Virus record (IMG/VR): IMGVR_UViG_3300030107_006054
Span: 2,968 to 26,268 of that record
From: a virus
DNA length: 23,301 nt
Direction: 5' to 3' (one strand)
The translations under genes were made by a program, and so were the position numbers. The notes under the pieces are model-generated. The model ran no database searches, was not told where the DNA came from, and saw only the letters and a list, made by a program, of their open reading frames with translations. Below, piece after piece: positions 3,451 to 20,962 of this stretch. How positions within the stretch are numbered: the stretch's first letter is position 1; each line of letters opens with the position of its first letter.

Positions 3451-4470
3451 ATGGGCAGAGGATTTTTTGCTAATAAATTTGGAGATACTCAACCTGCGAC
3501 TGCTGATCAAGCAGATCAAGGTGGGGTACTTAGTATGGATGATATATACTACTCTAAACAAGAAGGTGGGTATGCTGGTGATATAGAAGCTACTGGAGGA
3601 ACAGTAAGTAATTACACAATGGATGGTACTTATTATAAAGTACATACATTTTCCCATCCTAATTCAGATAATTTTGTAGTTAGTGCTTGTCCTCAAACTG
3701 CAACCGCAGAATTTTTTGTGGTTGCTGGTGGTGGATGTGGTGCTAATGGTTCTACTCACCCTACTCATACAGATGGAGGAGGAGGTGCTGGTGGATTAAG
3801 AACTAATATATTTGCGGGTCCTGAAAATCCGATGAGAGCCCCTCAATCTGCTTCAGCAGGTATTACTACTATTACTGATTCTTTCCCTATTAGTGCTCAA
3901 ACATATCCTATAACAGTTGGAGGAGGTGCAGCAGGTGCAACTGGTTATATTCAAGACGTTAACGGAGAAGGTTCGTTTATTTCTTCACCAACTGTTGTAG
4001 GACTTGTAACTGCAATGGGTGGAGGCGGCGGTGCTTATTGCTGCGGACAACCTGGTGATCATGGTGGTTGTGGTGGTGGTGCTACAGGTGGAGGATCTCC
4101 ACCATATCCAGGAGGAGAAGGTAAGGATGCGATTGATCCATTATCTCCTAAATGGCAAGGATACGATGGTGGTAGCGCAGGAACTCAACCTAATGCTGGT
4201 GGAGGCGGTGGTGCTGGGTCAGTTGGTAATACTCCTGGTAATGGAGAAGGTGGTTATGGAATTAATAGTACAGTCTTAGGCGGACCTACTTCCCCTGCAA
4301 TTTATTGTACTGGTGGTGATAGAACTAATACATCAACTCCAACTCCTGATAGGAGTCCTACAAATATTGGTGCTGGTGGTCATGCTGGTGCTAGAAGTCC
4401 TTCAACAGTTCCTTCTGGATCTGGTAATAAGGGAATAATTATTATTCGTTATCCTGTGGGTGGTCCATAA
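3451..4470 (+). CDS. Glycine-rich adhesin-like protein B (339 aa)
   Basis: Its N-terminus (MGRGFFANKFGDTQ) differs from the other two glycine-rich proteins, so it may dock to a different partner. A beta module follows with YKVHTFSHPNSDNFVVSA and AEFFVVAGGGCGANG (about residues 62-100). After that come glycine-run repeats with variable loops up to the terminal GIIIIRYPVGGP. It has several cysteines (for example YCCGQPGDHGGCGGG around residues 195-208), unlike protein A. GGAGG at 3437-3441 supports the start. It is the last gene of the first structural block; an early-type promoter begins right after its stop. A host-receptor adhesin role is inferred from the family. Confidence 0.78.
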   Translation: MGRGFFANKFGDTQPATADQADQGGVLSMDDIYYSKQEGGYAGDIEATGGTVSNYTMDGTYYKVHTFSHPNSDNFVVSACPQTATAEFFVVAGGGCGANGSTHPTHTDGGGGAGGLRTNIFAGPENPMRAPQSASAGITTITDSFPISAQTYPITVGGGAAGATGYIQDVNGEGSFISSPTVVGLVTAMGGGGGAYCCGQPGDHGGCGGGATGGGSPPYPGGEGKDAIDPLSPKWQGYDGGSAGTQPNAGGGGGAGSVGNTPGNGEGGYGINSTVLGGPTSPAIYCTGGDRTNTSTPTPDRSPTNIGAGGHAGARSPSTVPSGSGNKGIIIIRYPVGGP

Positions 4471-4525: not shown

Positions 4526-5146
4526 ATGGCATATCAGAGTATATGGTATTTTACTGATCTTCCTGAGAAGGTTATAGATCTGATAGAAGAAGATTTAACA
4601 GAAAAATTTGATCCTCAAATGCAGGACTCCAGGTTACATGGAGATTCATTAAATAAAGAGAAAAGAAATTCCCAAAATGCATGGATTCCAACTACTCATT
4701 GGGTAGGTGGATTTATGTGGCATTATATTCAGAGAGCAAATAGAGAGAATTTTCTTTATGATTTAAGATGCATTGATGGTGAGAGTATGCAATATACTCG
4801 GTATAAAGAAGGGCAATTTTATAATTGGCATAATGATGCTGGATTAGCAACACAATATAAACCTGTATCAGTAGGTAATCGGGCAGAAGGATTAGCACAA
4901 GATTTTGTAAATGAAAATGTAGAATTAATAAGAAAATTATCATTCGCAATGCAACTTTCTGATCCTGATGATTATGAAGGTGGAAATGTTCAATTTATTG
5001 ATGAAGCAGGAAATCAATATATTGCTCCTCGCAAGAGGGGATGTATAATATTGTTTGACTCAAGAACACAGCATAGAGTTCTTCCTGTAAAGAAGGGAAC
5101 TCGTAAGTCTATCGTTGGATGGACGGTTGGACCACGCTGGAAGTAG
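4526..5146 (+). CDS. 2-oxoglutarate/Fe(II)-dependent oxygenase, prolyl-hydroxylase-like (206 aa)
   Basis: The fold signature is that of PKHD-type 2OG-Fe(II) oxygenases. The iron-binding HxD is H102-N-D104 (in YNWHNDAG), the distal histidine is H183 (in TQHRVLPV), and R193 in the GTRKSIVGWTVGP stretch is the likely 2-oxoglutarate carboxylate ligand. The strands LSFAMQLSDPDDYEGG and GCIILFDS are the usual core strands. The length is normal for the family. Such enzymes couple 2-oxoglutarate decarboxylation to hydroxylation, in this subfamily often of protein side chains; the substrate here is unknown. It is first of a three-gene oxygenase run, just behind a consensus early promoter. A cytoplasmic enzyme is expected. 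Confidence 0.88.
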   Translation: MAYQSIWYFTDLPEKVIDLIEEDLTEKFDPQMQDSRLHGDSLNKEKRNSQNAWIPTTHWVGGFMWHYIQRANRENFLYDLRCIDGESMQYTRYKEGQFYNWHNDAGLATQYKPVSVGNRAEGLAQDFVNENVELIRKLSFAMQLSDPDDYEGGNVQFIDEAGNQYIAPRKRGCIILFDSRTQHRVLPVKKGTRKSIVGWTVGPRWK

Positions 5147-5155
5147 GAGGTTATT

Positions 5156-5905
5156 ATGGCAGAAAGACAGACCGAACAGTCGGTGATGATTCAGGAGAAA
5201 ATAAACAGTGGAACTGCATGGACACGCAATGATAAGTTTGAAAAGGATGGATATCTTAAGGTAGAAAATTTATGGGATGCAGAAGAACTTTATCATCCTC
5301 TTCCAGAATTACGGGGACAATTAAATTATTTTGATGATAATCCAGAGAATTTTAGTCATAATCCACTTGAACAACAAGTAGAAGGTTCAGTTGCTCGTTA
5401 TTGGCATCCACAGTATCGTAGGATTCATAGTGGTGTTCGGAAAAAATTAGAGATAATTCTGGGCCGGAAACTTTATAATACCTATTACTATGATAGGTTT
5501 TATTTTCCTGGGCAAGAATTAACTAAACATGCAGATAGAGATGCATGTGAAATATCTGTTACTATGCACGTTAGTACTAATCTTCCGGATAACTTAAAAG
5601 AATGGGAAATAAAGATTAAAACTCCCGATACCTACACTGATAAAAAGAAAACTGCTGTATTAGTTCCTGGTGAAGAAAGATCACTAGTATTAAATTCTGG
5701 TGATGGAATGATATATAAAGGATGTGAACGTCCTCATTGGAGGGATCCAATGCCTGGTATTACTAAGGAAGAATTGTCTAAAAAGAAGAAAAAGTGGTTT
5801 AGTAATAAAGATAATCCAGAAGAGTATTATTATCATCAAATATTCTTTCATTATGTTCTACAGGATGGTCAAAGAGCTCATTGTGCATGGGATAGAGCCA
5901 GATGA
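5156..5905 (+). CDS. 2OG-Fe(II) oxygenase-like protein (249 aa)
   Basis: The candidate metal-binding residues are H125-A-D127 (in LTKHADRDACEISVT) and H194 (in GCERPHWRDP), with the core strand pattern SVTMHVSTNL and LVLNSGDGMIYKG between them. The C-terminus has a basic stretch (KKKKKW) followed by YYHQIFFHYVLQDGQRAHCAW. This arrangement (HxD, DGxxYKGCExPHWR, final HYV-DG) is typical of an oxygenase-like group in marine phages. It follows its neighbour with a strong AGGAGG at 5145-5150 and its stop overlaps the next start as ATGA, so the three genes form one translational unit. The substrate is unknown; a protein or glycan hydroxylase is plausible. Confidence 0.8.
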   Translation: MAERQTEQSVMIQEKINSGTAWTRNDKFEKDGYLKVENLWDAEELYHPLPELRGQLNYFDDNPENFSHNPLEQQVEGSVARYWHPQYRRIHSGVRKKLEIILGRKLYNTYYYDRFYFPGQELTKHADRDACEISVTMHVSTNLPDNLKEWEIKIKTPDTYTDKKKTAVLVPGEERSLVLNSGDGMIYKGCERPHWRDPMPGITKEELSKKKKKWFSNKDNPEEYYYHQIFFHYVLQDGQRAHCAWDRAR

Positions 5906-6459
5906 AGGCACCTCTTTTTGAATTTCCTTCTTATCAGTATGAGGTAAGTGATTGGAAGTTTAAGAAGAAAAGTCTTCTTAATCGTATTAATAAGAGTAAG
6001 TTTATACGCACCGAACTCCAACCTTTTGAGACCGATAGACAAACATGTGGTAAATCATATGTTAGATATTTTGAAACTCTTTTGGTTTCAGAACTTTCTG
6101 AGTTTTGTCAAGAGGCACAAGTCACATGTTCCATGACTGATGCATGGAGTGTTAAATATCAAAAAGGAGATCACCAAACTGTTCATAATCATCGGGGATG
6201 GGGATTCTCTGGAATATTATATGTGGAGTATGATCCAAAAGTTCATACTCCTACTTGTTTTGTAGCACCGTGGCAAGATCCTGCAACTGATACTACTTCT
6301 CTTGCATTTCCAGAAAATATAAAAGAAGGAACACTTTTTATTGCTCCTTCATGGGCATTACATTTTGTTCATCCCAACCATACAAGAAAGCAGAGAACTG
6401 TTGTGGTGTTTGATTTATTACCAGATCTTCCAGAACATCAAGCGATAAATAGTGAATAG
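5902..6459 (+). CDS. Putative 2OG-Fe(II) oxygenase of the HxH type (185 aa)
   Basis: The key motif is AWSVKYQKGDHQTVHNH with H95-N-H97, followed by GWGFSGILYVEYD and, near the end, GTLFIAPSWALHFVHPNH (H154, H157) and RTVVVFDLLPD. This matches the family of putative 2OG-Fe(II) oxygenases that have HxH followed by a SGxxYV strand instead of a classical HxD. It resembles the protein at 17521 (CWAALYNKGDHTDIHNH) with the HNH at the same residue numbers, so the two are probably paralogues. It overlaps the upstream gene by 4 bases. Two GATAAATA motifs near its end lead into the next structural gene. Catalytic activity is inferred. Confidence 0.75.
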   Translation: MKAPLFEFPSYQYEVSDWKFKKKSLLNRINKSKFIRTELQPFETDRQTCGKSYVRYFETLLVSELSEFCQEAQVTCSMTDAWSVKYQKGDHQTVHNHRGWGFSGILYVEYDPKVHTPTCFVAPWQDPATDTTSLAFPENIKEGTLFIAPSWALHFVHPNHTRKQRTVVVFDLLPDLPEHQAINSE

Positions 6460-7577: not shown

Positions 7578-10500
7578 ATGGCAGTAGTAATTCCTCAGGT
7601 AGTCACGGAAGTTAGTGCTTCAGGTGCTCAGGTTATTGATGGTAGTTTAGATCTTGATGGTGCTCAACAACAGTACTTAAGTAGAGATCCTTCTACTGCT
7701 GGTAATCAAATGACCTTTACTTATGCGGGATGGTTTGAAAGATCGGATTTTGGTAATGAAGTTATATTATTTGGTGCAGATGAGGATAATACTAATGTAC
7801 ACAATTGGTGTGTGTTGAGGATAGAAGCAACTCCTCAAATGACTTTTATTAATAATAATTCAAATAGTACAGGAGTTACTCTAAAAACATCACAATATTT
7901 TCGTGATACTGGTTGGTATCATGTAGTGCTTGCTGTTGATACTACAGACGGAACTTCTTCTAATCGAGTTAAACTTTATATAAATGGTGAACAGGTAAAA
8001 GATTTTGCTACTTCAACTTATCCTGCTCAGAATTATCAAACTCAAATAAATTCTACTAATTATCAGTGGGTTGGAAGAGAAGCAAGAGGATATTATTACC
8101 GAGGAAAGATGTCTCAGGTATATCTGATTGATGGAAAACAACTTGAACCAACAGAATTTGGATATACAGACCCATTGACAAATACATGGAGACCTAAGAA
8201 GTTTGAATCTCCTACAAGTCCTAATAATGGTAAGACTTGGAGTAGTGGAATAACTGGAACTTCTGGTGGAGCTTCTGTTACTGTAACGACTCCAGCAAAC
8301 GCATTTGATTATTCTGTCAGTACGAAAGCTACATTTACTCATTCGGCAGGAGATGACTCCATCATAACTTTTACCCCTCCTGGAGGTAGTATATCTGGAT
8401 CAACTTTTAGAATATATTGTTATCAACCACAAGGAACGTCTTCTGCTAACCAATATTTAAGTATTAATGGTGGTTCGTATGTTATTGATTCAGGTAATTG
8501 GGCTGGAGTATCTGCGAATAATGATGGATGGAGCACAGCTCAGACTATTCCAGGAGGAACGCTTACAAGTATTGCACTTAAACTTACTTATGGTGGTGCA
8601 TCAAGTCAATATATAAATGCTATTGAAGTTGACGGAGAACTGCTTATTGACGATTTAGATAATTCAAATGGTTTTGGCCACAATGGTTTCTACCTCCCAA
8701 TGGATGGAAACACACCGGTTGGTGAAGATCAATCAGGAAATGTAAATAATTATACTCCATATAATTTGGGTGCTGGTACTGTTTCTATGGATAAGGCTAC
8801 TGGAGCTTTTCCTACTCTTAATACTATAAATGGTGGAACAATTGCTACTCCTGGTGTAAGAGGGCAAGTAAGTATTGGAGTAACGGTAGCACCGAAAACT
8901 GGTGGTGGTAATGCATATTATTTTGATGGTGTAGAAGCTCCTTCTTTGGAACAATATCGGGGACAGACTATAACTTTTGATCAACAAGATTCAACAAATA
9001 ATAATCATCCACTTAAAATTGCTACTGCTGCTGATGCTTCAGGAAGTACTCAATATAATAATGGAGTTTTAATTGGTGGTACACCTGGTATTACCACTTA
9101 TTATGGTGTAGATTTTAATGGAAGCTCTAATAGAATGAGAATTCCTCATTCAAGTGAAGAATTTAAATTACAATCAGATTTTACAGTAGAAGGATGGGTA
9201 TATTTGGATGCTTTTGTTTCTGATGGTGCGGTATTTAGTTTTTGGGATTCAGGATCTACTAATAATAGAAATCTTATAATTGGACCTAATGCTAGTGGAA
9301 GTAATAAATGGACATTCATCTATAATTCTTCAGGAAGTGGCGGTTGGACTACTGTTGCTAATCCTGATGCTTGGACGGGGAAATGGACTCATCTTGCTTA
9401 TTCTTATGATTATAGTGCAACAACTCATAGAGCATTTGTAGATGGAGTGTTAGTAGGAACGAATTCAGCTGCTGCAATTTATAATGCTACACAATCACCT
9501 TTCATTATAGGATGCAATACTTATACTAATAGTGGATTCTTTAATGGTAAGATAACTAACGTTAGATTTTCTAACAATATTAGATATACTGATACTTTCC
9601 AACCCCAAGTAGAACCTTTTGCTACTGATGGAAATACTGTATTCTTAGGATGTTTAAGTGGTACTTCTGTAACTACTGCTGTTACTACTCCAAGTACCCC
9701 AGAAACTAGTGATGCTCCTTCAGTTTGGAAAGTAGATAATTTATATCACCCATCTACTAAAATAACAATTCCTAATGATGCACCGAATACTTTATATTAT
9801 TATTGCGGTAATCATTCTGGAATGGGTGGATCTATTGGAGTTAGTACAGATTTACATATAGCAGATCCTCATGCATCAAAATGTGTTGTAGCTCTTCCTC
9901 TTGCTGGTGTTAGTGAAGATGTAAGTGCATCAGTTGCATGTACTTCTATTCCAAAGAAAGTAACTGATGAAGGAAATGCGGCTTCCACAACGCTAAGTGC
10001 TCCTTTTTATGGTTCTTCTTATGATTTCGATGGAAGTGGTGATCATATAGCAGTTACTTCACCTGTTGGATTTGGTACGGTATTCTGCCAGGAAGCCTGG
10101 ATATATCATGAAGGGGGTGGAGATTATATTCTTACATCATCTAGTGCATCTGGAAGTGCAAGTAACTACTCTTATATCGAATCTCAAACAGCTGGAGAGC
10201 TTAGAATTAAATCGGATCCTGGAGCTTCTGCTGATACTCCTGCTAAATTTTATTCAGAAGATCAATGGTTTCATGTAGCTCATACTTCTGATGGAACCAC
10301 TGGAAAACTATATGTTAATGGTCAGTTATCTCCCAATACTTATAGTGCTAATGGATGGACTCCAGGTAAGTTTCAGTTTTTAAGACTTGCTGGTGGAGGA
10401 GGATTTGGAGGTGATTATACGGGACAAATAAGTGATTATAGATGTTATGTGGGAACTACCAAGTATACTGGGAATTTCAATCCTCCAGCAATCAAGGCAG

Positions 10501-13010
10501 ATATACTTCCAAATACTTCATCAGGTGTAGCATATAGTTCAGAACTTACGAAAGTAATTGATGGTTCTGTTGTTTTTGATGCGAGTGGTGATTACTTGTC
10601 TGGATCATCAACTGATACATTTGTTTCTGATGCGAAATATACAATTGACGGATTCATTTATTTGAATAGTGCTCCATCAAGTGGTGCAACAGCTGTTATT
10701 TTTGATACTGGAAGTGGTGGAAGTGATCCTGAATTAAATGTGTATAATAATAGTGGTAATGTTCAACTATATGAGTCACTTTCCAATAATACTAACTGGG
10801 ATGCTGGTGCTCCATATATGAAAGTTGGGAGATGGTATTACTTCAAACAGACTGTAAATGGAACATCAGCAACAGATTCGTCAGCAATTCATAAACTTTA
10901 TATTGACGGTAAAGTTGGAGTTTCAAATACAATTAATTTAAGTTCAAGAAGTGGAGCTTCAGTATTTTCAATTGGTGCTAGGACAAACGCTTCTTTGCTA
11001 TTAGATGGATATATATCAAATTTGAGATACAGAAGTGTTGTTGACGATTCATCCGTTGTTCCCACATCACCACTGACTAATGTAATCAATTCAGGAACAG
11101 CTGCTACAAAACTTTTATGTTGTCAGTCATCAGCTTCTGCAACCATTGCTGCTGTAACTCCCGAAAGTCTTACCGCAAACGGAGACGCAGCAGCAACCAA
11201 CTTCAACCCATTCAACACTGATATCACCACAGTTCTTGGAGAGGAGACTGATTACTGCACCATGAATCCACTTACTAATGCTCATGGTGTGACTTTAAGT
11301 GACGGAAACTTAAAATGTACTTGGCCTTCTGATGGTGATGGTGAGGCAGTTGCTGGGACAATAGCAATACCAATGGGTGTTGCTGGAAAATTCTATTGGG
11401 AATTAGATATAACAGCAGGAACTGGTGGTGGACTAGATTTTGGTATTGTAAGAAGTGACCAAATGAGTTGGATGGATGGATCAACATCTAATAGAGTATA
11501 CAACGACCCAGAGTTTGCAGGGTTACTGGGAAATAGTGGCGCATTTAGAAATAAAACAGGGACTGACTCAGATGTAAGTAGTTACTTAAGTTCTATTTCA
11601 AATGGTAGTTCCCAGACATTCATGGTGTGTGTTGATGCCTTTAAAGGTAAAATGTGGATTGGCAGAAACGGAGTGTGGGGTAATAATGGAGGCAGGGGGA
11701 ATCCTGCTTTGGGAAGAAATCCAGGGACATCTAACTTATATAAAGACACCATATACTCATATTTGCCAATCCAAATGGGTGCAAGCGATAGTGGTACATC
11801 CACTACTGTTTGGAATTTTGGACAAAAACCCTTCAAATATACACCACCAGAAGGATTCCAACCATTATGTCTTGCAAACTTAGAATCTCCTGCGTTGGTA
11901 AGACCTGACACTGCTGTTGGGATTGTAACTTATACAGGAACAATTACAGATACTTCAATTCAACCGATATCTGATGTCCCCTTCCAACCAGATATGACTT
12001 GGATAAAAAGAAGAGATGGAACTAATTCCTCTCAACTTGTAGACTCTGTAAGAGGTGCTGGTAAATGGTTGGAATCTAGTGGCAATGCTGCTGAACAATC
12101 AAGTAATACAAATGGAGTATTAACTACATTTAATTTAAATGGATTCAACTTAACAGGTGGATCTACTAATGCCAATTTATGTTGTGAAGATGGCTTTACT
12201 TATGTTTCTTGGAACTGGAAAGCAGGTGGAAATAATAATACATTTAATGTTGATGATGTAGGTTATGCAAGTGCTGCTGCGGCAGGATTAAATGGTGGAA
12301 CCATTACTCCTACAGGTGCTTCTGTTGGAACCAAGCAGGGATTTAGTATAATAGGATACACCGGAACAGGATCTGCTGGTACGTTGTCTCACGGACTCTC
12401 ACAAGCACCTGGTCTAATTATCATGAAAGGAAGGAATTTTACCGACGACTGGCGCGTTTATCACAGTTATTTGGATAGTAGTGAACCAGAAGATTATTAC
12501 CTAATTTTGCAGTCCACTAATGGAAAATCTGCCGATCAAGGTGCGTCGTTTATGAACGACACTGCACCTACAAACACAGTATTTTCTTTAGGAACAGATA
12601 GTGCCATTAACGGCAGTTCAAGAACTATGATCGCATATTGTTGGCACGATGTCCCTGGCCTGCAGAAATTTGGAAAATATGAGGGTAATGGTTCTGCTAG
12701 TGATGGTGTATTCGTGTATCTAGGATTTAGACCTGCTTTGCTTATTACGAAGAAAATCTCTAGTACATCAAATTGGATTATGTGGGATAAAGAAAGGAGC
12801 CCTTATAATGTTGCTAATAATTATCTTTATGCGAACTCTACTGATGCCCAGGATACTGATGGAATTAAGGGTGTTGATTTCTTATCAAATGGATTTAAAA
12901 TGTATAATAACTATACAGATGCTAATAATGATGATTCAGACTACATTTATATGGCATGGGCTGACTCACCATTCCATAACCTGTATGGAGGAGAGGCAAA
13001 CGCCCGATAG
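7578..13010 (+). CDS. Giant multidomain LamG/cupredoxin-like/SPRY-like tail fibre protein (1810 aa)
   Basis: The domains, by residue, are: LamG-like 1 (22-200; GWF-WYHVVLAV-KLYINGE); a beta module ending EVDGELLID (204-359); the first half of a cupredoxin-like domain (435-505) with H477; LamG-like 2 (510-695; FTVEGWVYLD, WTHLAYS, AFVDGVLVG); the second cupredoxin half (715-755) with C743, H746 and M749; LamG-like 3 (810-980; YDFDGSGDHI, LYVNGQL); LamG-like 4 (995-1180; VVFDASGDYL, KLYIDGKV); a SPRY-like domain (1222-1437; GKFYWELDI to YTPPEGFQPLCLANL); and a C-terminal marine-phage module (1469-1810; FQPDMTWIKRRDG, GFSIIGYTGTGS, YCWHDVPG). LamG folds bind glycans in other proteins, so host-surface recognition is likely. 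GAGGA at 7566-7570 supports the start. It is by far the longest gene here. Function is inferred from domains. Confidence 0.85.
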   Translation: MAVVIPQVVTEVSASGAQVIDGSLDLDGAQQQYLSRDPSTAGNQMTFTYAGWFERSDFGNEVILFGADEDNTNVHNWCVLRIEATPQMTFINNNSNSTGVTLKTSQYFRDTGWYHVVLAVDTTDGTSSNRVKLYINGEQVKDFATSTYPAQNYQTQINSTNYQWVGREARGYYYRGKMSQVYLIDGKQLEPTEFGYTDPLTNTWRPKKFESPTSPNNGKTWSSGITGTSGGASVTVTTPANAFDYSVSTKATFTHSAGDDSIITFTPPGGSISGSTFRIYCYQPQGTSSANQYLSINGGSYVIDSGNWAGVSANNDGWSTAQTIPGGTLTSIALKLTYGGASSQYINAIEVDGELLIDDLDNSNGFGHNGFYLPMDGNTPVGEDQSGNVNNYTPYNLGAGTVSMDKATGAFPTLNTINGGTIATPGVRGQVSIGVTVAPKTGGGNAYYFDGVEAPSLEQYRGQTITFDQQDSTNNNHPLKIATAADASGSTQYNNGVLIGGTPGITTYYGVDFNGSSNRMRIPHSSEEFKLQSDFTVEGWVYLDAFVSDGAVFSFWDSGSTNNRNLIIGPNASGSNKWTFIYNSSGSGGWTTVANPDAWTGKWTHLAYSYDYSATTHRAFVDGVLVGTNSAAAIYNATQSPFIIGCNTYTNSGFFNGKITNVRFSNNIRYTDTFQPQVEPFATDGNTVFLGCLSGTSVTTAVTTPSTPETSDAPSVWKVDNLYHPSTKITIPNDAPNTLYYYCGNHSGMGGSIGVSTDLHIADPHASKCVVALPLAGVSEDVSASVACTSIPKKVTDEGNAASTTLSAPFYGSSYDFDGSGDHIAVTSPVGFGTVFCQEAWIYHEGGGDYILTSSSASGSASNYSYIESQTAGELRIKSDPGASADTPAKFYSEDQWFHVAHTSDGTTGKLYVNGQLSPNTYSANGWTPGKFQFLRLAGGGGFGGDYTGQISDYRCYVGTTKYTGNFNPPAIKADILPNTSSGVAYSSELTKVIDGSVVFDASGDYLSGSSTDTFVSDAKYTIDGFIYLNSAPSSGATAVIFDTGSGGSDPELNVYNNSGNVQLYESLSNNTNWDAGAPYMKVGRWYYFKQTVNGTSATDSSAIHKLYIDGKVGVSNTINLSSRSGASVFSIGARTNASLLLDGYISNLRYRSVVDDSSVVPTSPLTNVINSGTAATKLLCCQSSASATIAAVTPESLTANGDAAATNFNPFNTDITTVLGEETDYCTMNPLTNAHGVTLSDGNLKCTWPSDGDGEAVAGTIAIPMGVAGKFYWELDITAGTGGGLDFGIVRSDQMSWMDGSTSNRVYNDPEFAGLLGNSGAFRNKTGTDSDVSSYLSSISNGSSQTFMVCVDAFKGKMWIGRNGVWGNNGGRGNPALGRNPGTSNLYKDTIYSYLPIQMGASDSGTSTTVWNFGQKPFKYTPPEGFQPLCLANLESPALVRPDTAVGIVTYTGTITDTSIQPISDVPFQPDMTWIKRRDGTNSSQLVDSVRGAGKWLESSGNAAEQSSNTNGVLTTFNLNGFNLTGGSTNANLCCEDGFTYVSWNWKAGGNNNTFNVDDVGYASAAAAGLNGGTITPTGASVGTKQGFSIIGYTGTGSAGTLSHGLSQAPGLIIMKGRNFTDDWRVYHSYLDSSEPEDYYLILQSTNGKSADQGASFMNDTAPTNTVFSLGTDSAINGSSRTMIAYCWHDVPGLQKFGKYEGNGSASDGVFVYLGFRPALLITKKISSTSNWIMWDKERSPYNVANNYLYANSTDAQDTDGIKGVDFLSNGFKMYNNYTDANNDDSDYIYMAWADSPFHNLYGGEANAR

Positions 13011-14817: not shown

Positions 14818-15870
14818 ATGTTTGGTGCTAATTGGTGGCATAAAAAAGAATCACCTCTTTTTACCGGAAATCATTTTGGATTTGGGGTAAATAAGGATGC
14901 GGAGGATGATGGGTCTCCGACCTTTTTTAGTGGAAGTGGTGGAGAGGTTACAGATGGTGTAACTCCTGGGAATGGATATAAGTATCATTATTGGAAAACT
15001 CCTGGTACTTTCTCCGTTGGTGGAAATTTCAGTGCTACAACAAAACAAGTTGATGTTCTTTGTGTAGCTAGTGGTGGACAAGGAGGAAACCGTGCAGGTG
15101 GTGGCGGTGGTGCAGGTGGTGTTGCCCTCGCAAGTGGAACAACCTGGATACCAGTAACAACAGCAGGAACAGATATAAACATTACTGTAGGAGCTGCACC
15201 TCCTCCTAATGCCAGTCCTCAACCAGAAGGAAATAAGCAGGATGGTAATGATTCTCTCTTTGGTTCAGGAGCACCAACATATCAAGTTGAAGCAGCTGGC
15301 GGTGGTGCTGGTGGTGCTGACTCTCCTGGTAACTCTGGTGGATCGGGTGGTGGAAAGATGTATGATGAAGGTAGTGCTGGATCAGGAACCCAACCCACTA
15401 AAAATCCTAGTATGCCCTGGGTAACTAATTATGGTCATAATGGATCAAAAGGACATAATGGTCCTAACTGGAACTCTGGTGCTGGTGGTGGAGCGAGTGG
15501 TAATGCTGCTGACGGCAGCTCTAGCGCTAGAGGTTCAGCAGGTAATAGTCAGAATTTCCCAGACTTTGATATTCCTTTGTATATGCCAGCTCCTGATCCT
15601 TATAGACCAGGTATAAATCCACTTCCTGGATACCATTATGGTGGCGGCGGCGGTGCTGGTGCTTATGGTCCTCCATTTTCTCCTCAAAATCACTCTACCA
15701 GTGCTAATAATGGTGGTGGCGGCACAGGAGCTCCTAGCATTGGTGACGGAACTCCTGGAGTTAATGGACTTGGTGGTGGTGGAGGAGGTGCTTGTGGAGG
15801 TACTCCTGGCCCAGGTCCTGCTGGTGGTCATGGTGGTGCTGGTATCGTAGTACTTAGGTATCAAGTATAA
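14818..15870 (+). CDS. Glycine-rich adhesin-like protein C (350 aa)
   Basis: The start MFGANWWHKKESPLF is almost the same as that of protein A at 1514, so both probably attach to the same type of partner. A beta module follows (YKYHYWKTPGTFSVGG and QVDVLCVASGGQGG, about residues 50-89). Then come glycine runs alternating with long variable loops rich in Asn, Pro and Tyr, for example around residues 255-275. It closes with GIVVLRYQV, the family end signature. AGGAGG at 14804-14809 gives a strong start. Its last 17 bases overlap, in antisense, the end of the carbamoyltransferase gene. An adhesin role is inferred as for A and B. Confidence 0.78.
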   Translation: MFGANWWHKKESPLFTGNHFGFGVNKDAEDDGSPTFFSGSGGEVTDGVTPGNGYKYHYWKTPGTFSVGGNFSATTKQVDVLCVASGGQGGNRAGGGGGAGGVALASGTTWIPVTTAGTDINITVGAAPPPNASPQPEGNKQDGNDSLFGSGAPTYQVEAAGGGAGGADSPGNSGGSGGGKMYDEGSAGSGTQPTKNPSMPWVTNYGHNGSKGHNGPNWNSGAGGGASGNAADGSSSARGSAGNSQNFPDFDIPLYMPAPDPYRPGINPLPGYHYGGGGGAGAYGPPFSPQNHSTSANNGGGGTGAPSIGDGTPGVNGLGGGGGGACGGTPGPGPAGGHGGAGIVVLRYQV

Positions 15871-15879
15871 TATTTTTTT
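15850..15879 (+). terminator. Possible weak terminator at convergent gene ends
   Basis: TACTT at 15851-15855 pairs with AAGTA at 15863-15867 (5 bp, plus a possible G-T pair) around a 7-base loop. A run of seven T at 15873-15879 follows after five bases. The stem is short and lies within coding sequence, so the call is weak. Confidence 0.28.
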
Positions 15880-17488
15880 CTACAAACCAGAGATAATTAA
15901 TTTTCGAGTTTTTAAAAGTTTTAATTGCATCTTGTGGAGATTCTACTAATGGATCTCCTGCAAGATTAAAACTTGTATTTAATAAAACAGAACAACCTGT
16001 AAGTTTTTTAAATTCCTTTAGTAAGTTGTAAAGATGAGGAATTGAGTTATTTACAGTTTGAATTCTACATGTACTATCAACATGGGTAATTCCTGGTATT
16101 GAATCAGTTAATACTGGGAAGGATATAGTCATGTTTGGAGATTTAGTGAGATGGTACATCTCAAAATATTCTTTTGCATCTTCTTCTAATACACAACCAG
16201 CAAAGGGACGATACCATTCTCTTTGTTTGATTTGATTTATTATATTTTTAGCATCAGGATTTCGTGGATCAAAAAGTATAGAACGATTTCCAAGAGCTCT
16301 GGGACCACATTCTGCTTGCTCGTTAAAAATAGCAACGCTTTGTTGGTCTACAAGTAGTTTGGCAATATCTTTAAGAGATGCCCTTTTTCCTTTTATTTGT
16401 TTGAGATTATGGGGAATATGGTTAAAGAATGTATGGGAAGGAAGTTTGGGTATAGTGCCAACCTCATTTTTATGAGCATAAATGGCAGATCCTAAACTGA
16501 TGGATGAATCATCTGCTATTGGTTCAAAATAAAATTCTACTTCTGGTAGATTTTTAATAAGATGGTGATTAGTAACAACATTTAAACCATAACCACCTGT
16601 AACACATACCTTTTTAATATTCGTTTTTTCTACATATTTTTTGACGAGTCTTAATACTTCTTCTTGAGTTTGTTTTTGAACCTGAAAAGCATAGTCGGCA
16701 TAAAATTTATAATTTCCTTCTGGTATTTTTGTAGTTTCATTTCCATAATGTTCTTTTAATAGAACTGTTTCATGATTATTGGCATTATGCCTCATAAAAA
16801 GATGACTATCAGCAATACCATTGTAAAATAAATTGACATGTTCTTTATCTTCACCGTATGAGGATAATCCCATTACCTTACCATTGTTTAAAACATTTTC
16901 TCCTATTAAAGTAGTGGCACTCTCATATACTTGAGTGATTCCTAGAGTACTGTCACATCTTACATCACATCGTGGATTGTTTTTAATATACTTTTTAAGG
17001 TGATCAATAATTTCTTTATCAAAATCTATTTTACCTATTTGAGGAACTATAAAATTCTTATAGATTGAGTTTATTTCATAGTTTTGGTTAATCTTAAAAA
17101 TAGTTTCTGTCTCTGCATAGTGTTTGCATCGGGTTCCATTTCTATCTACTACAAGAACAAGTGATTCATCGAATTTACTATTATAGTATGCATAATATGC
17201 ATGGCACAAATGATGATCCCATTCCATATGAATGATTTCACAATCAAATTGCTTTCTTAAAATAGATTCAAGATAATCTCTGTGAAAAGGATCTGGTGCA
17301 AGAGTTGAGTTTAATATTACTAAATCTATCTTAAAATCATTCTTTATGATATAATCAAGTGATTTAGTCCATCCTTTGTCATGTTTAAAACCAGAAAGTC
17401 TTTCTTCTTTTGAAAAGTATTTTAGTTTACCTTCACTAATAAAAGTGACACTAGCATCATGAGATGTTATAATAGATAATATATTCAT
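15854..17488 (-). CDS. NodU/TobZ-type carbamoyltransferase (544 aa)
   Basis: The N-terminal domain starts MNILSIITSHDASVTF and has the family motifs DHHLCHA (residues 91-97), VLVVDRNGTR (111-120), GKVMGLSSYG (203-212) and VTGGYGLNVVTN (296-307). The C-terminal domain has ECGPRALGNRSIL (393-405), KQREWYRPFAGCVL (421-434) and LLNTSFN (502-508). Family members make a carbamoyl-adenylate from carbamoyl phosphate and ATP and transfer the carbamoyl group to a hydroxyl, usually of a sugar or antibiotic. The length is near the family norm, so it looks intact. The usual DGxGE segment reads DRNGT, a notable change. It is the only minus-strand gene, divergent from an oxygenase-like gene at 17521. Its target (glycan, nucleotide or other) is unknown. 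Confidence 0.88.
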   Translation of the reverse strand: MNILSIITSHDASVTFISEGKLKYFSKEERLSGFKHDKGWTKSLDYIIKNDFKIDLVILNSTLAPDPFHRDYLESILRKQFDCEIIHMEWDHHLCHAYYAYYNSKFDESLVLVVDRNGTRCKHYAETETIFKINQNYEINSIYKNFIVPQIGKIDFDKEIIDHLKKYIKNNPRCDVRCDSTLGITQVYESATTLIGENVLNNGKVMGLSSYGEDKEHVNLFYNGIADSHLFMRHNANNHETVLLKEHYGNETTKIPEGNYKFYADYAFQVQKQTQEEVLRLVKKYVEKTNIKKVCVTGGYGLNVVTNHHLIKNLPEVEFYFEPIADDSSISLGSAIYAHKNEVGTIPKLPSHTFFNHIPHNLKQIKGKRASLKDIAKLLVDQQSVAIFNEQAECGPRALGNRSILFDPRNPDAKNIINQIKQREWYRPFAGCVLEEDAKEYFEMYHLTKSPNMTISFPVLTDSIPGITHVDSTCRIQTVNNSIPHLYNLLKEFKKLTGCSVLLNTSFNLAGDPLVESPQDAIKTFKNSKINYLWFVEKNIILDT

Positions 17489-17520: not shown

Positions 17521-18051
17521 ATGAAAATGATTAATGAAAGATTGCGGGTTGCGGAATATGAATATCCTTTAGCATCTAAATTAAATCCAGAACTCCATCA
17601 AATTATTCTTGGGTTACCTGATGCTCAACAAAGGAGGGTGTCATTAAAAGCAAAGATGACTGAATGGAGAACTGAGAATAAGAAGTTTGATATTGTTAAG
17701 GAGTTTGTAAAGAAGTTTATAATAAGAGACTTTTCTAATGGAGAAGTTATTTGTTCTGAATGTTGGGCAGCACTTTATAATAAAGGGGATCATACTGATA
17801 TTCATAACCATGAACCATCATTTTTTTCTTTTGTTTATTATGTTAATACTCCAAAAGGATCCTCCCCTTTAATTTTTGATACTTCTGGCTACAAGATAAA
17901 ACCCATATCAGGTAGATTGGTTATTTTTGATTCTAAATTGAATCATCGAGTTCCAACTAATAGATGTGATGGAAGGAGTGTCATATCAGGAAATTTCATT
18001 TATAAGCAATTGCGGGGAGTTCATGGTGATCTTAGTAGTGTGACAGTTTAA
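17521..18051 (+). CDS. Putative 2OG-Fe(II) oxygenase of the HxH type (176 aa)
   Basis: The core motif ECWAALYNKGDHTDIHNH has H95-N-H97, followed by the strand SFFSFVYYVN. The second half shows GRLVIFDSKLNHRVPTNR (H142) and RSVISGNFIY. This parallels the protein at 5902, so the two are probable paralogues of the phage HxH oxygenase group. The N-terminal 60 residues are helical and charged. The ATG lies right after the divergent promoter region shared with the carbamoyltransferase, which suggests joint control of the two. An earlier start is not possible without entering the promoter; a second in-frame ATG exists at 17527. Enzyme activity and substrate are inferred or unknown. Confidence 0.75.
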   Translation: MKMINERLRVAEYEYPLASKLNPELHQIILGLPDAQQRRVSLKAKMTEWRTENKKFDIVKEFVKKFIIRDFSNGEVICSECWAALYNKGDHTDIHNHEPSFFSFVYYVNTPKGSSPLIFDTSGYKIKPISGRLVIFDSKLNHRVPTNRCDGRSVISGNFIYKQLRGVHGDLSSVTV

Positions 18052-19074: not shown

Positions 19075-19249
19075 AGAAGAAACACAAGATCAAAAATGGA
19101 ATCGTGGATTGGATCTTTACATAGAATCAGTCCAGAAACCTGATAATGTTCTTCGTGCTTGTGCTCACAATCAGAAGTGTTTTAATGAGTTAATGGAAGT
19201 AAGAGAGCATGTATTAGAGTATGTTAGGACATTAAGAAGATCAGTTTAA
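19040..19249 (+). CDS. Hypothetical small helical protein (69 aa)
   Basis: This charged, helical protein (MSAMKDQNTIREEETQDQKW to VLEYVRTLRRSV) has a central segment CAHNQKCFNELMEVREHVLEY. C41 and C47 are 6 residues apart. The start at 19040 lies inside the preceding gene; an in-frame ATG at 19049 would shorten the overlap to 26 bases. Its stop overlaps the next ATG (TAATG), the standard coupling seen here. I do not recognise the family. Confidence 0.62.
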   Translation: MSAMKDQNTIREEETQDQKWNRGLDLYIESVQKPDNVLRACAHNQKCFNELMEVREHVLEYVRTLRRSV

Positions 19250-19791
19250 TGCAACAACCTATATTATTCGCAACTCCTTTGTGGACGTTTAAAAACCCAT
19301 TACCTAAAGGAGCATATGATTGGGCATTAAAATATAAAAAAGAGAATCCTGAATCGGTAGTCATATCCAATAGAGGAGGGTATCAAAGTAAACAGCAAGG
19401 AATTGATGTTTGCCCATATAAGGATCATTTAGAATTTATTTTACACCAATTCCAACCATTTCGTGAATTTGTTATAGATGGTTGGTGGTTAAATGTTAAT
19501 ATGAAAGGGGATTATAATTTACCTCATACTCATGGTGATGCTGATTTAGCTGCAATATGGTATATAACTGATAATGAAGGATTATTATATTTTCAAGATC
19601 CTTTAATTACAAGTAGGATTGTTTTATATTCTACAATATTATCTGAGTGGAATGATAGACCTAATAAAAGTATAAAATGTAGTGCAGGAGATTTGTTAGT
19701 ATTCCCTTCCGATGTTCCTCATCGTGTAGAGGAGCATCAGTTAGATTCTCCTCGCATTTCTCTTGCTTTTAATATGATAGGTAAGCGTTAG
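19249..19791 (+). CDS. Putative 2OG-Fe(II) oxygenase, HxH type (180 aa)
   Basis: The N-terminus PILFATPLWTFKNPLPKG is typical of putative 2OG-Fe(II) oxygenases that begin with a pathway-substrate-like strand. The metal motif is H93-T-H95 in NLPHTHGDADLAAIWYI. The distal part is GDLLVFPSDVPHRVEEH (H158), followed by SPRISLAFNMIG with R169 as the likely 2-oxoglutarate-binding arginine. All core motifs are in order, so this is the best preserved HxH member in the window. The TAATG overlap couples it to the upstream helical protein. The oxygenase substrate is unknown. Confidence 0.82.
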   Translation: MQQPILFATPLWTFKNPLPKGAYDWALKYKKENPESVVISNRGGYQSKQQGIDVCPYKDHLEFILHQFQPFREFVIDGWWLNVNMKGDYNLPHTHGDADLAAIWYITDNEGLLYFQDPLITSRIVLYSTILSEWNDRPNKSIKCSAGDLLVFPSDVPHRVEEHQLDSPRISLAFNMIGKR

Positions 19792-20356: not shown

Positions 20357-20962
20357 ATGGATAATATTTTTAAAATTGAAAGGGTAAATGAACATTCTCC
20401 TATTACCAAGGCAATTATGCCTGCAGAAATACTTACAGAAGTAAGGGGGTGGATAAATGAATGTAGGAAAATTAAAGATCATCCTTTAAGAGAACTTAAA
20501 TCTCATTCTAATGTAGGATACAATTATAATGGAAGTGGAGTGAAACATAATAGTTATCAATGTTCTATTCCTTTCCGATTAGTGGAGGAATCTTTTTGGT
20601 TAATATGGACATTAAAATTGGTTGCTAAATATTCTGAAGGAGGAAAAGATTATCGTTCTTTTAGTATTAGAAATCCTTCTGGGTTGAGTTATGATGATGA
20701 ATATGGAATTTGGGCAAATTTTACCTATGAAGGAGATGATAATCCACTTCATAATCATGCTACCGAGGACGGGTTTCTTTCAGGTATAATGTATATTCAT
20801 AATGATGGACAACCCACTGTTTTCCCTGAATATGATATTATAACTGATCCTAGTGAAGGGAATATGTACCTGTTCCCCTGTCATTGTTCTCATTATGTGG
20901 AGAAAAAGACTACATCAAAAGAAAGAGTTTCAATTGCATTTAATATAGTACAATCATTATGA
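20357..20962 (+). CDS. Putative 2OG-Fe(II) oxygenase, HxH type (201 aa)
   Basis: The metal motif is H132-N-H134 in GDDNPLHNHATEDGFLSG, followed by the strand IMYIHNDGQPTVFPE. The distal part is GNMYLFPCHCSHYVEKKTTS with H179, then KERVSIAFNIVQSL with R190. These match the HxH, SG-xY, LFP-x-H and RxSIAFN signature of the putative 2OG-Fe(II) oxygenase family. The N-terminal 75 residues (helical, with FKIERVNEHSPITKAI) are unlike those of the other members here. The stop overlaps the next start as ATGA. A cytoplasmic enzyme with an unknown substrate is expected. Confidence 0.78.
   Translation: MDNIFKIERVNEHSPITKAIMPAEILTEVRGWINECRKIKDHPLRELKSHSNVGYNYNGSGVKHNSYQCSIPFRLVEESFWLIWTLKLVAKYSEGGKDYRSFSIRNPSGLSYDDEYGIWANFTYEGDDNPLHNHATEDGFLSGIMYIHNDGQPTVFPEYDIITDPSEGNMYLFPCHCSHYVEKKTTSKERVSIAFNIVQSL

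Follow-up and report, generated by a model that had tools for sequence, protein, structure and literature searches.

Blue copper proteins such as plastocyanin, amicyanin and rusticyanin are free secreted electron carriers in which the copper ligands follow the order His ... Cys-x(n)-His-x(n)-Met, with a Tyr-rich strand before the Cys and a Gly after the Met. Free plastocyanin genes (petE) are also carried by cyanophages (PMC3037559). Metal ligands occur on phage tail fibres as well, where iron is bound through HxH motifs, as in T4 gp37 and Alteromonas phage R22Y (PMC11705849). In the open-access literature, no report was found of cupredoxins in phage structural proteins or of a cupredoxin split by a lectin. 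The domain described here has the same ligand order, the same Tyr-rich strand and the same Gly as the secreted copper proteins, and structure comparison of a predicted model points to the same Greek-key barrel. It differs from them, and from the petE products of cyanophages, in being located inside a large virion protein, where it is interrupted by a LamG domain. Like the HxH fibres it places metal ligands, here candidate ones, on a tail fibre, and it differs from these fibres in the presumed metal, the type of ligand and the fold.

The window, meaning the whole stretch of 23,301 nucleotides that was analysed, is a portion of a 26,268-base virus record (IMG/VR IMGVR_UViG_3300030107_006054). 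Since its gene content includes a 2Fe-2S ferredoxin, a phage-type DNA helicase, 2OG-Fe(II) oxygenases and a carbamoyltransferase, a T4-like cyanophage is suggested as the source virus. The split domain belongs to a modular protein whose PHROG matches are virion structural and tail fibre families, and in which Pfam detects four Laminin_G_3 domains and a C-terminal DUF7483 (Table 1). The second LamG domain alone lies inside another domain; the other three are located between domains.

Table 1. Features of the split cupredoxin-like domain and its protein (coordinates in the window)
Feature	Position	Strand	Basis
1810-residue modular virion/tail-fibre-type protein	7578..13010	+	ORF list, Pfam, PHROG
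N-terminal part of cupredoxin-like domain, residues 434-509, with H477	8877..9104	+	Profile match, model 3-74
Candidate ligand His477	9006..9008	+	Invariant column among 57 members and 338 distinct homologues
Inserted guest, residues 510-726 (217 residues), complete LamG and tail linker	9105..9755	+	Excision join, Laminin_G_3, LamG fold
LamG core, residues 515-667	9120..9578	+	Pfam match
LamG tail linker, residues 690-726	9645..9755	+	Low model confidence; sequence comparison by eye
C-terminal part of cupredoxin-like domain, residues 727-756, with C743, H746, M749	9756..9845	+	Profile match, E 5e-10
Short ligand loop C743-x2-H746-x2-M749	9804..9824	+	C, H and M columns invariant among 57 members
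DUF7483 C-terminal domain, residues 1450-1798	11925..12971	+	Pfam, E 5e-86

The earlier note on this DNA had recognised two halves of one domain around a LamG insert, and its motifs are found where it placed them: VAPKTGGG at 437, FDQQDSTNNNHPL at 467-479, GTPG at 501-504 and STKITIPNDAPNTLYYYCGNHSGMGG at 726-751, with the candidate ligands H477, C743, H746 and M749 at the residues given. A profile made from uncut relatives alone, leaving out the window sequence, matches the N-terminal part over model positions 3-74 (75.5 bits, E 9e-22) and the C-terminal part with 37.7 bits, in the right order and in the same ORF. Compared with uncut homologues, the N-terminal part is 61% identical (G006/L168) and the C-terminal part 57% identical (G006). 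When residues 510-726 are excised, the two parts merge into one continuous match over model positions 3-108 (131.3 bits, E 4e-39). In this excision test, stretches of varied length were deleted and each join was rescored against the profile; the best join was 509|727, nearly all of the best joins, the top six included, had an excised length of 217 residues in common, and 2000 joins to a shuffled C-terminal part reached a maximum of only 88.2 bits.

After excision of the 217 residues, the loop returns to the usual size in the family. The distance from His to Cys is 266 in the window protein and 44-53 in most relatives (at most 93 by simple count). In a MAFFT alignment the gap falls between Y509 and S726, one residue before the excision join, with no host residue missing, and the cupredoxin residues ITTYY (505-509) are retained ahead of the insert. 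The LamG domain proposed between the halves is indeed present, but its extent of 510-695 was drawn too short, and 510-726 describes it better, as a LamG domain with its own tail linker. The guest enters immediately ahead of the strand that precedes the Cys strand. No exact repeat of at least 8 bases is common to the two boundary regions, and for this reason no mechanism of insertion is proposed.

The uninterrupted form of the domain is common. As the earlier note held, relatives occur in marine phage proteins, and hundreds were found in scans of viral contigs. A profile of 57 diverse members retrieved 338 distinct full-length copies from 476 loci in marine viral and microbial contigs. All of these copies are uncut, which excludes the outcome that the two halves are never contiguous. 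The continuity stated in the earlier note, in which GTPG runs directly into the ITIPxxAPxTLYYYC strand, is true of the uncut homologues, and this direct junction supports the reading as an insertion. Among annotated phages, tblastn places the N- and C-terminal parts about 3 residues apart in S-TIM66 and S-TIM61, and the parts are also contiguous in Pelagibacter phage Baldr; the uncut sequence reads GTAGSTGAYTEIIVPEGTPTLYYYC in the S-TIM66 protein and GTQGQAGAYVQIIVATGAVTLYYYC in the Baldr protein. Direct homologues are found in fibre and baseplate domains of marine phages (phrog_30742, phrog_677), the nearest having 45-62% identity and the same ligands. Such relatives, including the S-TIM66 virion protein, cyanophage gp9 and tail-fibre-like proteins of P-SSM2, are uninterrupted, unlike the window domain, and their annotations go no further than virion structural, tail fibre or baseplate connector protein.

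Conservation in this family is concentrated at the candidate ligands. The set of His, Cys, His and Met is kept in all 338 full-length copies, the last three spaced as Cys-x(2-4)-His-x(2-3)-Met, while identity elsewhere in the domain falls to about 35%. The pattern H..C-x(2-3)-H-x(1-4)-M is present in 337 of them, the remaining one having H..C-x4-H-x2-M, and the ligand spacing is 2,2 in 275 of 285 matching homologues. Across the 57 diverse members, six columns and no others are invariant: those of the four ligands and, besides them, a Tyr and a Gly. H477, C743, H746 and M749 of the window protein fall in the invariant His, Cys, His and Met columns, in the order His ... Cys-x(2-4)-His-x(2-4)-Met. 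The C-x2-H-x2-M loop has the length of that in amicyanin. Taken together, ligand order, loop length and predicted fold suggest a type-1-like site.

Several further copies of the domain were observed. Upstream of the window, this virus record contains a copy without interruption (G000:C1:1012-1248; L003), reading GHPFRIQ...YYQCTAHANMGG, in a protein that matches the baseplate/tail connector family phrog_677 across that domain. A degenerate copy lacking most ligands occurs in gp7 of P-HM2 (L006), which scored under the threshold defining the 338, and intact copies are found in an ORF elsewhere in the same phage (L280). A Rhodobacteraceae contig (L314) has the longer ligand loop C-x4-H-x2-M (CAASGHEGM). 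The His/Cys/His/Met domain also appears in genome contigs labelled Marine Group II archaea, SAR86, SAR116, Pelagibacter and Opitutia (L289, L293, L296-L301, L303, L304, L306, L307 and others), often in proteins of 170-440 residues.

The fold was assessed mainly on an uncut relative (L189), modelled by AlphaFold2 with a pLDDT of 91.3 and strands at 28-32, 43-46, 61-64, 73-77, 85-90 and 97-102. In a VIA-align comparison of this model, the best seven chains are all type-1 copper cupredoxins, with Z scores of 8.1, 7.6 and 7.5 for the N-terminal part of Hyphomicrobium nitrite reductase (2dv6) and 7.0-6.4 for rusticyanin. The domain is also present in BFVD models of fibre and baseplate-connector proteins from cyanophages, with TM up to 0.89. 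The fold could instead be an immunoglobulin-like sandwich, to which the YYC..H similarity would be superficial: a Foldseek search of the PDB with the L189 model puts Ig-like folds on top (E 4e-3), several rows of a PDB sequence-profile comparison are Ig domains, and one BFVD relative is named an Ig-domain protein. Against this, all seven cupredoxins stand above every Ig row in VIA-align (Z of at most 6.2), plastocyanins align in the sequence-profile comparison with His and Cys/His in register, and Ig folds are not known to carry an invariant His/Cys/His/Met set. An Ig sandwich is therefore considered unlikely, and the assignment to the cupredoxin fold appears good, with some doubt left because Foldseek alone prefers Ig domains.

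The AlphaFold2 model of the split segment has host strands at 464-468, 479-482, 497-500, 726-730, 738-743 and 750-756, which correspond to the six of L189. Confidence in the host parts is mostly pLDDT 84-93, with 91-93 in the C-terminal part; the region of the LamG tail linker (residues 672-723) and the residues around the first junction fall below 50, and the pTM is 0.47. The strand pattern and the per-residue confidence thus support a single fold shared by both halves, as far as a model can whose input alignment included uncut homologues and which is for that reason no independent proof. Because MAFFT placed the LamG rows imperfectly alongside the cupredoxin rows, the first LamG strand is poorly modelled. 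Among the matches listed for the split model in the PDB, only LamG relatives appear, so this search is no test of the barrel. If strand 73-77 of L189 forms a hairpin with the Cys strand 85-90, the insertion point would lie beside the Cys/His/Met loop, and strand order accordingly suggests that the guest sits at the metal end of the barrel.

It may be asked whether the LamG insertion destroyed the domain, leaving two halves that now serve as independent linkers. The low pTM and the presence of the insertion in one contig only would fit such a broken domain. However, no host residue was lost, all ligands are kept, the closest uninterrupted relatives (L188, L189, G006) still share 55-63% identity with it, and the C-terminal part is modelled with high confidence. 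A second, independent split family also bears on this question. In viral contigs L415-L418, a cupredoxin-like host domain is interrupted in the same H-to-C region by a different guest of about 100 residues, Gly/Ser-rich and without a Pfam match, and the ligands are kept. The host fold and the interrupted region are those of the window protein; the loop subtype is longer in L415-L418. L415 is about 80% identical to L416-L418, and dN/dS between L415 and L416 is about 0.06 and about 0.07 in the host halves and 0.14 in the guest. Purifying selection on both halves indicates that the H-to-C region tolerates insertion and that members of a split family can stay under selection that keeps the fold, which argues against the window case being a broken gene. 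Loss of the domain is thus quite unlikely. The contig L376 was likewise listed with this second split form.

The guest itself is an ordinary member of the LamG/Laminin_G_3 domains, of concanavalin A-like fold, that occur in phage fibres. Alone, it matches Laminin_G_3 (PF13385) with E 4e-21 and 76.1 bits, well above the curated cut-off of 27.6, and its modelled fold is concanavalin-like, with a Z of 12.6 to a GH43 accessory domain. Its tail linker resembles, by eye, the tail (1160-1210) that follows the fourth LamG of the same protein. Further cases of LamG within a cupredoxin were sought with the junction peptide PGITTYYG and none was found, nor did the LamG junction appear in other contigs of the viral scans; a LamG alignment of four rows was too diverse for scanning. 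Several long tblastn spans (L188, L201, L228, L264) turned out to contain one uncut domain, copies in tandem or adjacent ORFs.

A junction known from a single contig, in a protein with repeated LamG units, raises the suspicion of an assembly chimera in which one such module was misassembled into a cupredoxin gene. This would require two misjoins, both in frame and neither costing the host domain a single residue, in an ORF open across 5.4 kb and with no shared exact repeat at the boundaries. In addition, the guest is only 24-27% identical to the other LamG domains of the protein, a divergence too large for confusion in assembly. Such an artefact is regarded as very unlikely.

The identity of the metal is less certain than the ligand set. 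No cupredoxin match is found for the window protein in Pfam or NCBIfam. Weak matches to the Pfam family Copper-bind (PF00127) speak for a cupredoxin: 16 of the 57 members match at E of at most 1 (best E 0.0028), and the phage's own second copy reaches E 0.004 (2e-4 at genome scale) with 18.0 bits, the cut-off being 21.2. No tested member passes the curated cut-off. Close descent from petE was also considered and is unsupported, since hhalign against three cyanophage plastocyanins gave a probability of only 1.7%. Given the failed PF00127 cut-off and the missing hhalign link to plastocyanin, the domain is called cupredoxin-like and not a member of Copper-bind. It is possible, if doubtful, that a truly inserted and refolded domain has a His/Cys/His/Met set that holds no copper in the virion, being a structural relic or a Zn or Fe site in a stalk or hub. 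Among the annotated records examined, no family member is described as copper-binding; the literature search, which found no report tying cupredoxins to phage structural proteins, and the iron-binding HxH fibres (PMC11705849) also speak for such a role. On the other side, Cys and Met are kept together with the two His in every distinct full-length member, and the closest folds to the model are type-1 copper domains. Zn and Fe sites would need no invariant axial Met.

The reading preferred here, with a probability of roughly 0.78, is that residues 434-509 and 727-756 together make up a single Greek-key domain of cupredoxin-like type, whose family is widespread among the virion proteins of marine phages, that a LamG unit has been inserted into it, and that it has refolded around a type-1-like site as a fibre scaffold. 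The sequence comparisons show the insertion, where it starts and stops, the conservation of the ligands and the uncut family, and modelling supports a common fold. A complete LamG unit has entered the loop just ahead of the strand pairing with the one that bears the Cys. The domain would refold around its guest, the N- and C-terminal parts retaining the core, and H477, C743, H746 and M749 are predicted to converge in a metal site of type-1-like character. The metal bound there is most likely copper and may staple the two parts together. In a tail fibre or a protein associated with the baseplate, the domain probably serves as a rigid scaffold, where it would anchor and orient the LamG lectin-like module, displayed from a loop, which may contact host or surface glycans and so take part in adhesion.

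Since the guest is expected to emerge from the barrel next to the ligand loop, a coupling between metal site and lectin is conceivable, in which the binding of copper or its redox state would determine how stiff the LamG domain is or how it is oriented; this is a highly speculative idea. If it held, the availability of copper in seawater would tune phage adhesion, and the many such sites in marine phage tails would do for copper what the 'Trojan horse' idea proposes for iron.

Phage fibres thus appear to use a blue-copper-type domain as a scaffold for insertions, and two unrelated guests occupy the same region of it. A very common virion domain of marine phages, so far labelled 'structural' or 'tail fibre', keeps the full type-1-like ligand set in every full-length member above the profile threshold, and the presence of copper in marine phage tails becomes a directly testable question. 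For protein engineers, the domain offers a natural insertion-tolerant loop in a putatively metal-stapled fold.

The surroundings of the gene have features of their own. Five different 2OG-Fe(II) oxygenase genes lie within 16 kb (4526-5146, 5902-6459, 17521-18051, 19249-19791 and 20357-20962), and a further ORF (5156-5905) is oxygenase-like by eye, without a Pfam match. The carbamoyltransferase gene (15854-17488) is on the opposite strand (-) and is surrounded by structural genes. Three paralogous glycine-rich proteins, all assigned to phrog_2295, are encoded among the fibre genes (1514-2617, 3451-4470 and 14818-15870), and a further glycine-rich ORF is found in the adjoining part of the virus record (L003).
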